From Tetradesmus obliquus (Eukaryota; Chlorophyta; Chlorophyceae; Sphaeropleales; Scenedesmaceae), in NCBI GenBank assembly GCA_030272155.1, contig CP126206.1:620001-684000 (forward strand): 64,000 nt of DNA, given 5' to 3'. The notes below the pieces were generated by a model, which was not told the origin of the DNA, searched no databases, and saw only the letters and a program-made list of their open reading frames with translations. Positions 10,125-52,136 of the stretch are shown piece by piece. The number at the start of each line of letters is the position of its first letter. Position 1 is the first letter of the stretch. A program made the position numbers and the translations under genes.

Positions 10125-11233
10125 TCAGCAGTCTGCAGCACCTGACGCTGGCCTAGCTGCCGCAGCACCGCTGCTGCTGCTGGGTGCAGTTGGTGCGGCT
10201 CGCAGCTCAGCTACATTCGCCGCTGTGCTGCCAGCAGCAAGATCCACAGAGGCCCTACCAGGGAAGCCCGCAGCTGCTGCACGCCTGTGGCTACTGACAG
10301 GGTTCACTTCGAGTGACAGCCGCCGCAGGAATTGGCTGCCGCCGCCAGCAGCAGCAGCAGCGTGGCGCGCAGCTGCCTGTGCCCTTGCACTGCTGGATGT
10401 GGTCAACATGCCCATTGCATCTGCAGCACCATGACCTGGCAGTGATGCGTCCTGCACGGCTGCGCTCAGCCGTACAGAGCCAGCAGCTGGAGTACTGCTG
10501 CCCGCGCTACCCGCAGCAGCGGCAGCTGCTGCAGCCACTGCAGCTGCATCGGAGCTGCCAGACAGTGTCCCTGTCAGCTGCTGCTGCAGCAGCTCGGCAA
10601 AAGGCGACTTGCTGCCTGTAAAGCCCTCCTGAAAGTCTTCCGCCTGGCTGCTGCGCCTCACACCTCCATCTGCTGACAAACCTCCGTCTGCTGCTGCCCC
10701 TGCCCCCAGCTGCACTCGTGCAGCATCACCAGCTGACGCCCCTTCAGCACCGCCCAGCAGCTGCTGAGCCGCCAAGGCTTGCTGCTGCAGCTGCGCTGTA
10801 GCAGCAAGCGCCGCCTTCAACTGCTGAAGCGTGGCAGCTGCCGAGCCTGCGCCTGCTGCGTGCGCATTACCGCTCGACGCTGCTGGCAGCAATCCCGACT
10901 GCGTGGTGGTGCTGCTGCGGCTGCCCAGCCCTCCACCTGCGGCCTCCTGCATGCTACTAGAAGCCATGATAGCAGCTAGCCCAGGCGGCTCCTGCGCCTG
11001 CTGCTGCAGCAGCTGCAGCAGCCCATTCACTGTCTGGCTGAGGTGTGCGGCGCCTTGCGCCAGGTTTGCAGCCAGGGCAGCCAGGCATGCCGGCTCAGCA
11101 GAGCTGCAAGGCACTGAGAGGCTTACCAGTGCTGCTGCTGCTGCGTCGTGAAGTTCACGGTGCGCTTCCTCGTCACCGGCCGCCATGCTGCGCAGGAACT
11201 TCTCAGTGGCCTCGCCAGTCTCCCTGACCATGC
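10125..11233 (-). other. ABCC part 6: exon 28, C-terminal tail
   Basis: A single long last exon of 368 codons follows NBD2. It begins with the normal ABCC ending ([17 protein letters not shown]) and continues about 340 aa beyond where most ABCC proteins stop. The extension is rich in Ala, Gln, Ser and Gly, with a [11 protein letters not shown] segment that fits a basophilic-kinase site (RRLS). A further intron inside it cannot be excluded. Confidence 0.8.
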
Positions 11234-51400: not shown

Positions 51401-52136
51401 AGTCGGGTAGCTTTGCATTGGATAGTATGTTCAGTAAATGCTTGGCCTCTCAACCTGGTGCCGAGCTAGGCATTGATTTGATTATGTACCAGCTCATGTT
51501 GGTGGTGTGCTTCCCTCTCTCAGAAGTGCTCGGCAAGATGCTACAGCAGCAGCAGCTGCCACACACACCAGCTGCACTCTGACCAGAACCCGGCCCTGCT
51601 GCACTGCGTGCGCGCCTGCAGCCGGCTCAACCGCCGCTACATGAACGCCATCAAGGAGATGCCGCTGTACCTGGCACAGATGGCACCCCGCGCCCGCGTG
51701 CCCGCCACAACATATGTGCCACCACCACTGCAGGTGAGGCGCTGACACAGCGCTAAGCCTGCGGCGCGTGGATACTGTGCGCAGCTGCGACAGTCACAGC
51801 AGGGCACACACCTCACCCTGCAGCGTTGCCTGCTTCACTTCAGTCACCTGCAGTGCACCTTTGCTCTTCCACCTGTGCCTGCACTGCTTTTGGATATGTT
51901 ACATCAATTCCCGCGCTGCTGGTTCGCGCATAACTCTGCGCAGCTCTTCTGGTTGTTCAGCTTTCTGCTACCCCTGCCACTCGATGGGTAATGCCAGATG
52001 GGGAGATTTGCCTGATCACCATGTGCTGCCTGCCCATCGCGCCCGTCTCAAATCCGTGCAGGCCAACGGGCTGGGCTGGTACCCTGAGTTCAACAAGGTG
52101 TGGGAGTGGTTCGGCATGCCAGGCTACAGCTTCTGA
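36806..52136 (+). CDS. OSCA/CSC1/TMEM63-like (DUF221) ion channel, 28 exons
   Basis: Twenty-eight exons (listed in the three part entries) join in continuous phase to 3408 nt, 1135 aa; all introns are GT-AG. The protein has one N-terminal membrane helix, two more helices, a long cytosolic region (aa ~212-730), then a conserved multi-helix pore domain (aa ~735-1060), the OSCA/CSC1 (ERD4/RSN1) plan. Family members are hyperosmolality- or stretch-activated, calcium-permeable cation channels or lipid scramblases in the plasma membrane or endomembranes. The start ATG at 36806 has a good context (GACATGG) and gives a short hydrophilic N-terminus before helix 1. Coding is 22% of the span. Function as a channel is family inference; gating cannot be told. 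Confidence 0.93.
39595..40200 (+). repeat. Copies of exon 8 3' splice site (5)
   Basis: Five units of about 120-150 bp upstream of exon 8 keep a CTGCAG-type acceptor and VHKGAKLLDVLGAA coding, near 39630, 39758, 39894, 40014 and 40137. The 39758 copy extends through KFEGML with three synonymous differences and no replacement until it diverges. Confidence 0.93.
40425..40800 (+). repeat. Copies of exon 8 end with 5' splice site (4)
   Basis: Four ~90-105-bp units downstream of exon 8 keep EAQVKQRHWYQ coding and a GTGAGT, GTGACA or GTGAGG boundary, near 40437, 40527, 40635 and 40750. Confidence 0.93.
42700..42745 (+). repeat. Copy of exon 12 end
   Basis: A decoy of the PEFMV boundary (CAGAGTTCATGGTCC) lies about 215 bp downstream of exon 12; the donor is not preserved. 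Confidence 0.55.
43855..43960 (+). repeat. ~40-bp tandem repeat in intron 15
   Basis: Three copies of GCTGCTGTATGCTGTAAAGC plus a TGCATGCGTATTGTCGTA spacer follow exon 15. It is not obviously exon-derived. Confidence 0.8.
45270..46300 (+). repeat. ~104-bp tandem array of exon 19 3' splice site (about 10 copies)
   Basis: Copies near 45281 (degenerate), 45386, 45490, 45626, 45730, 45834, 45938, 46042, 46144 and 46246 precede the authentic acceptor at 46349. Each has CTGCAG|(T/C)TCTGCAA and FCKAVQWELYC coding, then an intron-like tail AACACTGCTGCCACCGTCTG. Replacements such as Q to R and SA to GS occur in several copies. Confidence 0.95.
46690..47300 (+). repeat. ~280-bp tandem copies of exon 19 end with 5' splice site (3)
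   Basis: Three units carry GFLPSLLITLWQ coding, ending CTGTGGCAG then GTGCGTGG in two of them (CTGCGTGG, donor lost, in the first at ~46736). Intronic parts (GATCACGCTATAGATGCTGC) are highly similar between units. Confidence 0.93.
47465..47515 (+). repeat. Copy of exon 20 3' splice site
   Basis: CCTGCAGGGCCTGGCGCTGC and the LPRLVYLVA coding occur at 47466 and, authentically, at 47718, about 250 bp apart. Confidence 0.92.
49200..49560 (+). repeat. ~105-bp copies of exon 24 3' splice site (4)
   Basis: Copies at about 49207, 49312, 49418 and 49513 precede the true acceptor at 49618. Each carries LLDLFGGPVPPRV-type coding after a GCAG. The 49418 copy has five synonymous changes and one replacement over 17 codons; the others have more replacements. 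Confidence 0.93.
49865..50075 (+). repeat. Copies of exon 24 end with 5' splice site (2)
   Basis: Two decoys repeat TGGGTGTTCTGGAGGTGTG and part of the FAATW coding, near 49885 and 50050. Confidence 0.85.
50695..50892 (+). repeat. Copies of exon 25 end with 5' splice site (2)
   Basis: Two ~150-bp units repeat LVCCAIMVAFTG coding. The first keeps the GTGAGA donor; the second has GTAAGA. Coding differences from the authentic end are synonymous (one and three changes). Confidence 0.93.

Follow-up and report, generated by a model that had tools for sequence, protein, structure and literature searches.

RESULTS

Introns of two neighboring genes carry tandem copies of exon edges

We analyzed a 64,000-nucleotide (nt) stretch of the Tetradesmus obliquus genome (G000:C16:620001-684000, within a 17-contig, 104.7-Mb assembly), referred to here as the window; coordinates are window positions. 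Two neighboring genes lie in it, and many of their introns contain partial copies of the adjacent exon edge arranged in arrays:

10128..35343 (35343-10128), minus strand: ABCC (MRP-type) transporter gene, 29 exons and 28 GT-AG introns, from spliced alignment to P0001, with an ABC_tran match
36806..52136, plus strand: OSCA/ERD4-like channel gene, 28 exons and 27 GT-AG introns, from spliced alignment to P0094, with RSN1_7TM matches

A sequence-only reading of the window had given both genes 28 exons, which is right for OSCA and one short for ABCC. The aligner permitted only GT or GC donors and AG acceptors, and every modeled intron in both genes is GT-AG. The ABCC protein read from the window equals P0001 over all 1793 residues and is T. 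obliquus OEZ86_010184. The OSCA coding sequence ends at 52133 with its stop codon at 52134-52136, and the model of exon 9 lacks 7 residues of P0094. This template, a 1120-amino-acid protein, probably derives from RNA, because the longest contig behind it measures 3617 nt, less than the 15.3 kb that the gene covers. In the OSCA exons based on P0094, the outermost splice site is used at every array.

Self-comparison of the window by BLASTN (E ≤ 1e-5) gave 138 repeat pairs, all of them direct, with a median spacing of 238 nt. We then compared exons with introns by BLASTN (E ≤ 1e-3), separating adjacent from non-adjacent introns. Aligning introns with their flanking exons, the check suggested by the sequence-only reading, yielded 83 matches in adjacent introns, of which 82 were sense and 1 was antisense; all non-adjacent exon/intron pairs together gave 24 (11 sense and 13 antisense). 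Tightening the threshold to E ≤ 1e-8 left 59 and 0. Among the 82 sense matches, 78 touch the edge of their own exon and lie on its non-coding side; the other 4, one each at ABCC exons 2, 3, 17, and 25, were more than 5 nt off the exon edge and were excluded. The 78 copies kept (42 donor-side, 36 acceptor-side) sit within single introns of the gene models and occupy 31 edges, 21 of the 57 exons (16 ABCC, 5 OSCA), and 25 of the 55 introns. The earlier tally of copies at at least 18 ABCC and at least 6 OSCA exons is close to this count, and exons 2 and 17 would bring ABCC to 18. Each edge has one to twelve copies, and the copies nearest the edge contain 22 to 133 nt of exon; both agree with the ranges first read from the letters (one to twelve copies, 20 to 150 nt). 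The GT or AG is preserved in 68 of the 78 copies (36/42 donors, 32/36 acceptors). Local direct repeats of any kind make up 42.9% of ABCC and 34.4% of OSCA intron bases; the description of long introns as consisting largely of copies therefore suits the copy-bearing introns and not the introns as a whole. The arrays are as follows.

11509..12862, minus: 12 donor-side copies, ABCC exon 27 (end), intron 27, unit 117-118 nt
14075..14207, minus: 1 donor-side copy, ABCC exon 25 (its last 133 nt), 244-nt unit; 10 synonymous and 1 nonsynonymous differences
14620..15168, minus: 5 acceptor-side copies, ABCC exon 25 (start), intron 24
15895..16069, minus: 2 donor-side copies, ABCC exon 23, intron 23
17523..17732, minus: 2 donor-side copies, ABCC exon 20, intron 20
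21174..21218, minus: 1 donor-side copy, ABCC exon 18, intron 18
22553..23017, minus: 3 donor-side copies, ABCC exon 16, intron 16
23391..23454, minus: 1 acceptor-side copy, ABCC exon 16, intron 15
23957..23998, minus: 1 donor-side copy, ABCC exon 15, intron 15, 42/42 nt identical
24511..24543, minus: 1 acceptor-side copy, ABCC exon 15, intron 14
24775..24846, minus: 1 donor-side copy, ABCC exon 14, intron 14; 7 synonymous and 0 nonsynonymous differences
25336..25679, minus: 2 donor-side copies, ABCC exon 13, intron 13, units 251 and 254 nt
26035..26240, minus: 2 acceptor-side copies, ABCC exon 13, intron 12
26552..26711, minus: 2 donor-side copies, ABCC exon 12, intron 12
28330..28462, minus: 2 donor-side copies, ABCC exon 10, intron 10
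28671..28732, minus: 1 acceptor-side copy, ABCC exon 10, intron 9
28989..29060, minus: 1 donor-side copy, ABCC exon 9, intron 9
29450..29908, minus: 4 acceptor-side copies, ABCC exon 9, intron 8
30179..30222, minus: 1 donor-side copy, ABCC exon 8, intron 8
30465..30540, minus: 1 acceptor-side copy, ABCC exon 8, intron 7, 112-nt unit, 97% identical
31038..31063, minus: 1 acceptor-side copy, ABCC exon 7, intron 6
31953..32005, minus: 1 donor-side copy, ABCC exon 5, intron 5
33659..33749, minus: 1 donor-side copy, ABCC exon 3, intron 3, 132-nt unit
39625..40178, plus: 5 acceptor-side copies, OSCA exon 8, intron 7
40434..40672, plus: 3 donor-side copies, OSCA exon 8, intron 8
45283..46293, plus: 10 acceptor-side copies, OSCA exon 19, intron 18, unit about 103 nt
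46699..47297, plus: 3 donor-side copies, OSCA exon 19, intron 19, units 276-280 nt
47474..47508, plus: 1 acceptor-side copy, OSCA exon 20, intron 19
49207..49560, plus: 4 acceptor-side copies, OSCA exon 24, intron 23
50017..50063, plus: 1 donor-side copy, OSCA exon 24, intron 24
50704..50888, plus: 2 donor-side copies, OSCA exon 25, intron 25, 149-nt unit
52122..52586, plus: stop-codon array in the OSCA 3' untranslated region (UTR), last codons, TGA, and start of the 3' UTR, about 9 repeats of a 44-nt unit

The copies are spaced at 82 to 280 nt as tandem units. For 18 of the 31 nearest copies, the aligned exonic and intronic stretches add up to the spacing within 5 nt, as tandem duplication requires, and the sum is exact for units of 112, 126, 96, 149, 244, and 251 nt. 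Tandem Repeats Finder recovered the larger arrays. The largest are at the donor of ABCC exon 27 (12 copies, 118 nt; Tandem Repeats Finder reports 12.8 copies of this unit at 95% match) and at the acceptor of OSCA exon 19 (10 copies, about 103 nt). Exonic parts diverge from their exon by 9.8% on average; a few copies are identical over 35 to 43 nt, and unit lengths vary. Divergence was greater at the second than at the first rank from the functional edge in 10 of 15 arrays, a trend too slight to build on. At the ends of six young units, the excess of microhomology was 0, 1, and 6 nt in three and 29 to 64 nt in the three that run into further copies.

Two further observations concern annotation. 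The gene model P0002 comes from another strain, which from its label, Sobl393_1, we take to be UTEX 393; the protein it predicts terminates in another copy of the exon-14 edge, a second one that differs slightly from the first. This terminal segment is probably an intronic exon-14 copy annotated as an exon. Beyond the two genes, an open frame at 54750-56309 (minus strand) has a weak Glyco_transf_92 match (21.3 bits against a cut-off of 23).

Edge copies occur in other genes and in most of the long introns sampled

We extended the comparison to kinesin genes, picked by Pfam domain and not by repeats (30 of 34 gene clusters taken), in which 49 of 88 neighboring exon pairs had an acceptable donor-acceptor pair and the others were dropped. 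Two ABC paralogue stretches were added. Among the paralogues, parA1 was counted, with one stop in its model, and parA2 was omitted because its model was too partial. PF00122 and PF00664 served solely for locus finding. The 136 introns scored were 28 of ABCC, 27 of OSCA, 32 of the paralogues, and 49 of the kinesins.

At the stricter threshold, copies were present in 17/28 ABCC, 7/27 OSCA, 6/32 paralogue, and 3/49 kinesin introns; the looser one gave 18/28 for ABCC and 7/27 for OSCA and included one 187-nt intron with a copy. Outside the window, 9 of 81 modeled kinesin and ABC introns bear copies; their absence from every other intron, which the sequence-only reading had named as telling against it, is not what we found. 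Exons matched their own introns at the edge 91 times and away from it 4 times (n = 136), and when exon edges were set against introns of another gene as a chance control, 0 of 479 pairs had an edge match. The exon-25 copy, the one copy searched genome-wide, had only local relatives. Local sense partial copies were seen for 8 of 118 kinesin exon matches, in 4 of 30 genes, alongside one weak antisense match. One kinesin locus (L046, G000:C2:7429500-7435900) has 6 acceptor-side and 2 donor-side copies in a single 1398-nt intron.

Copy-bearing introns were long. Copies were found in 0/49 introns below 250 nt, 3/39 of 250 to 350 nt, 3/12 of 350 to 500 nt, 18/24 of 500 to 800 nt, and 9/12 of at least 800 nt, a relation that is partly built in, as the copies themselves add length. 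Copies are present in the majority of the long introns scored (27/36 of those of at least 500 nt); the sample is small, and its two window genes were selected for their repeats. Among introns of at least 350 nt outside the window, 6/15 carry copies. Together with the 18 clean tandem units, the length relation supports the original proposal that these introns grew by boundary-spanning duplication. Copy-free kinesin introns have a median of about 230 nt, which we took as the base length.

Some long introns have other contents. A 6006-nt kinesin intron (L044, G000:C1:8052500-8062400) and an 883-nt paralogue intron showed no exon-edge copies. ABCC intron 19 (17967-20611, 2645 nt) holds intron-only repeats, GC-rich and of CGCA type, with long open frames in at least two reading frames, and exon-edge copies were undetected in it. 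The same intron holds a 28-nt minisatellite (18016-18157, 5.1 copies, 98%) that touches neither flanking exon.

Tandem duplication filtered by the protein is the favored origin

We favor, at a probability of roughly 0.7, the view that the arrays are by-products of frequent short tandem duplication, filtered by selection on the protein. Short tandem duplications (units about 80 to 280 nt) would arise at a high rate in the T. obliquus nuclear genome. Those falling wholly within an exon would alter the protein and be lost. A duplication crossing a single coding edge, be it a donor, an acceptor, or a stop, would be silent when the outermost functional site stays in use, that is, the first donor, the last acceptor, or the first stop, and the spare half-exon would end up on the non-coding side. 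Repeated events would build arrays and lengthen introns from a base of about 230 nt up to 1.7 kb. What we infer in this account is that duplication is so frequent, what causes it at the molecular level, and that decoy splice sites are disregarded in vivo.

A de novo scan for local direct repeats in both genes gave 36 groups: 31 touched an edge, 5 were intron-only, and 0 were exon-internal. By intron, local repeats were present in 30 of 55 (26 edge, 1 both, 3 intron-only). A filter acting on the protein would leave exon-internal groups missing, as seen here. For comparison, we simulated duplications of the observed unit lengths, placed randomly along genes whose introns had the base length. In this blind simulation 22% of events fell within introns, 55% crossed one edge, 11% fell within exons, and 13% crossed several edges, so that one-edge events made up 71% of the protein-neutral duplications. 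The OSCA stop-codon array shows a comparable outcome at a coding edge without a splice site. This favors a protein filter over a splice-site mechanism and indicates that the process need not target splice sites.

Several results weigh against this account. The edge share of repeat groups (31/36, 86%) is somewhat above the simulated 71%; this slight excess may arise because intron-only repeats diverge on both sides and so fade from view sooner. The exonic part has a median of 47 nt, against 70 nt in the blind model (Kolmogorov-Smirnov P = 0.0006). The aligned parts fall out of step with the spacing in 13 of the 31 nearest copies, for which a tandem origin is presumed. No copy was detected in 9 of the 36 introns of at least 500 nt. 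Finally, exons and copies differ by changes that are too often synonymous for the copies to be neutral, as described next.

Exon-copy differences are biased toward synonymous changes

Exons and their copies differ at 7.5, 4.9, and 16.6% of codon positions 1, 2, and 3. Counting each distinct change once in 38 arrays (31 window, 7 kinesin), we found 169 synonymous and 144 nonsynonymous changes. With an intron-derived mutation spectrum, the resulting omega of 0.32 (bootstrap 0.22-0.45) lies under the floor of 0.5 for neutral copies beside an exon that is free to change synonymously. Omega was 0.22 on the donor side, 0.42 on the acceptor side, and 0.317 with CpG sites excluded; 0.4-0.6% of bootstraps reached at least 0.5, and removal of any one array left it at or below 0.341. 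Much of the low value is driven by three donor arrays singled out post hoc, those of ABCC exons 13, 14, and 25 (15/3, 7/0, and 10/1 synonymous/nonsynonymous). Others look neutral, such as the OSCA exon 19 acceptor array (9/29) and the ABCC exon 18 donor array (1/7).

The codon-periodic signal is independent of ascertainment, since the synonymous share, given the count of differences, is independent of age. An apparent special conservation of exonic parts (8.9% versus 24.5% intronic divergence between neighboring copies) did not hold up as such and is at least partly ascertainment. An intron-led search returned 53 near-edge matches, 35 of them with an exonic part at least 75% identical. With the 18 lower-identity matches left out and 11 of the 35 coming from one array, divergence from the exon was 14.4% in intronic and 9.6% in exonic parts, the latter close to the roughly 9.1% that we reckon for a neutral copy next to a constrained exon. 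Between copies of the youngest array, exonic and intronic divergence were 3.9 and 4.0%. A paralogue as source is ruled out for the exon-25 copy, the only one so tested, by its local relatives. Gene conversion between exon and copy should, by reasoning, not bring the ratio below 0.5.

Our preferred account of the low omega, itself tentative, adds recombination between haplotypes to tandem duplication and does not exclude it. Another strain's exon edge may have moved into the copy position; exon and copy would then differ as alleles do, mostly synonymously, because many of the copies would derive from other haplotypes. The exon-3 copy has V196, as does P0002, where the window exon has A, and the strain proteins differ at 11 of 277 residues in copied regions, so that haplotypes have diverged. 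However, P0002 agrees with the copy at only 1 of 100 copy-versus-window residue differences (counted over both genes, with P0002 representing part of ABCC), and the first exon-13 copy, with 9 differences in 90 nt, has a synonymous divergence high for one species. It is still more speculative that the half-exon copies act as a reservoir exchanging with the functional exon edge through such recombination, which would explain the mostly synonymous differences.

We consider it improbable that a boundary-aimed mechanism, such as splicing- or R-loop-coupled nicking or RNA-templated repair, copied edges into introns. The edge share of repeat groups and the short exonic parts noted above would fit such a mechanism. 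However, the stop-codon array has no splice site, intron-only tandem repeats are present (5/36 groups; for example, the 28-nt minisatellite of intron 19), and the clean units contain intron sequence, so that spliced RNA was not the template.

It is more doubtful again that the copies are functional half-exons, serving alternative transcripts or splice-site buffering. The codon periodicity, the omega under the neutral floor, and the counts in the exon 13, 14, and 25 donor arrays all speak for function, but the copies hold one splice site only, many spacings are not multiples of 3, net gaps are not divisible by 3 in 12 of the 78 copies, and arrays such as the OSCA exon 19 acceptor and ABCC exon 18 donor arrays look neutral. 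False duplication of exon edges in assembly is very improbable, given the average divergence of 9.8%, the varied unit lengths, and the second exon-14 edge at the end of P0002 from another strain.

Decoy splice sites show no sign of selection

Splice dinucleotides survive in the copies about as well as exonic dinucleotides (0.82 per array), and dinucleotide survival in the 78 copies gave no sign of selection for or against decoy sites. With a score matrix trained on the real sites, real donors scored higher than the mean of their copies (Wilcoxon P = 0.005) and in 14 of 19 arrays equaled or exceeded the best copy. Real acceptors did not score above their copies (P = 0.42; 5 of 12 arrays). Our guess is that recognition of the whole exon body lets one first donor beat up to 12 similar ones.

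DISCUSSION

The arrays resemble several known systems in part. Intronic minisatellites, or variable number tandem repeat arrays, are homogeneous arrays of head-to-tail units. The units here are likewise head-to-tail, cleanly so in 18 of the 31 nearest copies and by Tandem Repeats Finder; unlike minisatellites, they carry coding sequence and the splice site of the adjacent exon, with separate origins at many edges. Introner elements resemble one another across genes. They too change intron content on a wide scale, but they are near-identical in many unrelated introns, whereas none of the 479 other-gene pairs here had an edge match. Whole-exon tandem duplication, as in mutually exclusive exons, yields a complete exon with both splice sites, whereas the copies counted here are partial exons ending at one edge.

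The closest parallel is a potato gene in which a boundary-crossing tandem duplication yielded a new intron (PMC4974935). As described there, the duplication spans an intron-exon boundary, and the copy retains the 3' splice site and exon start, as in our arrays. In potato, however, the intron was new and exonic sequence was inserted; here existing introns lengthen with the protein unchanged, at many edges and with up to 12 copies. The same paper recounts the Rogers AGGT duplication model and the ATP2A1 case, which share with our arrays a tandem duplication whose product can be spliced out without a peptide change. In the Rogers model an exon-internal AGGT gives rise to two new splice sites, whereas our arrays duplicate one site that already exists and retain the outer, original one. 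The initial view, that growth on this scale is not a standard mode of intron expansion, can be refined: a single boundary-crossing event was known from potato, and what is unusual is the scale. No description of boundary-copy arrays turned up in our searches of an open-licence library, which does not in itself show their absence from print.

Duplication over exon boundaries offers a concrete path for intron lengthening without transposons and is consistent with the long introns of T. obliquus, for which Table 1 of PMC5966456 gives a mean of 462 bp, compared with 230-302 for four further green algae. The authors of that report ascribe the larger T. obliquus genome to non-coding sequence. Whether long introns in other places arose from boundary-spanning duplications, with exonic copies that later decayed, can now be tested. 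For annotation there is a warning, as the P0002 model appears to have an exon-14 copy as an exon. The arrays also serve as natural experiments on splice-site choice, each offering many similar donors or acceptors of which the outermost alone gives the right protein. If the reservoir reading is true, alleles could exchange exon edges, with the intron taking up the surplus copies, and these introns would be natural competition assays in which the outermost site is still chosen over up to 12 near-identical decoys.

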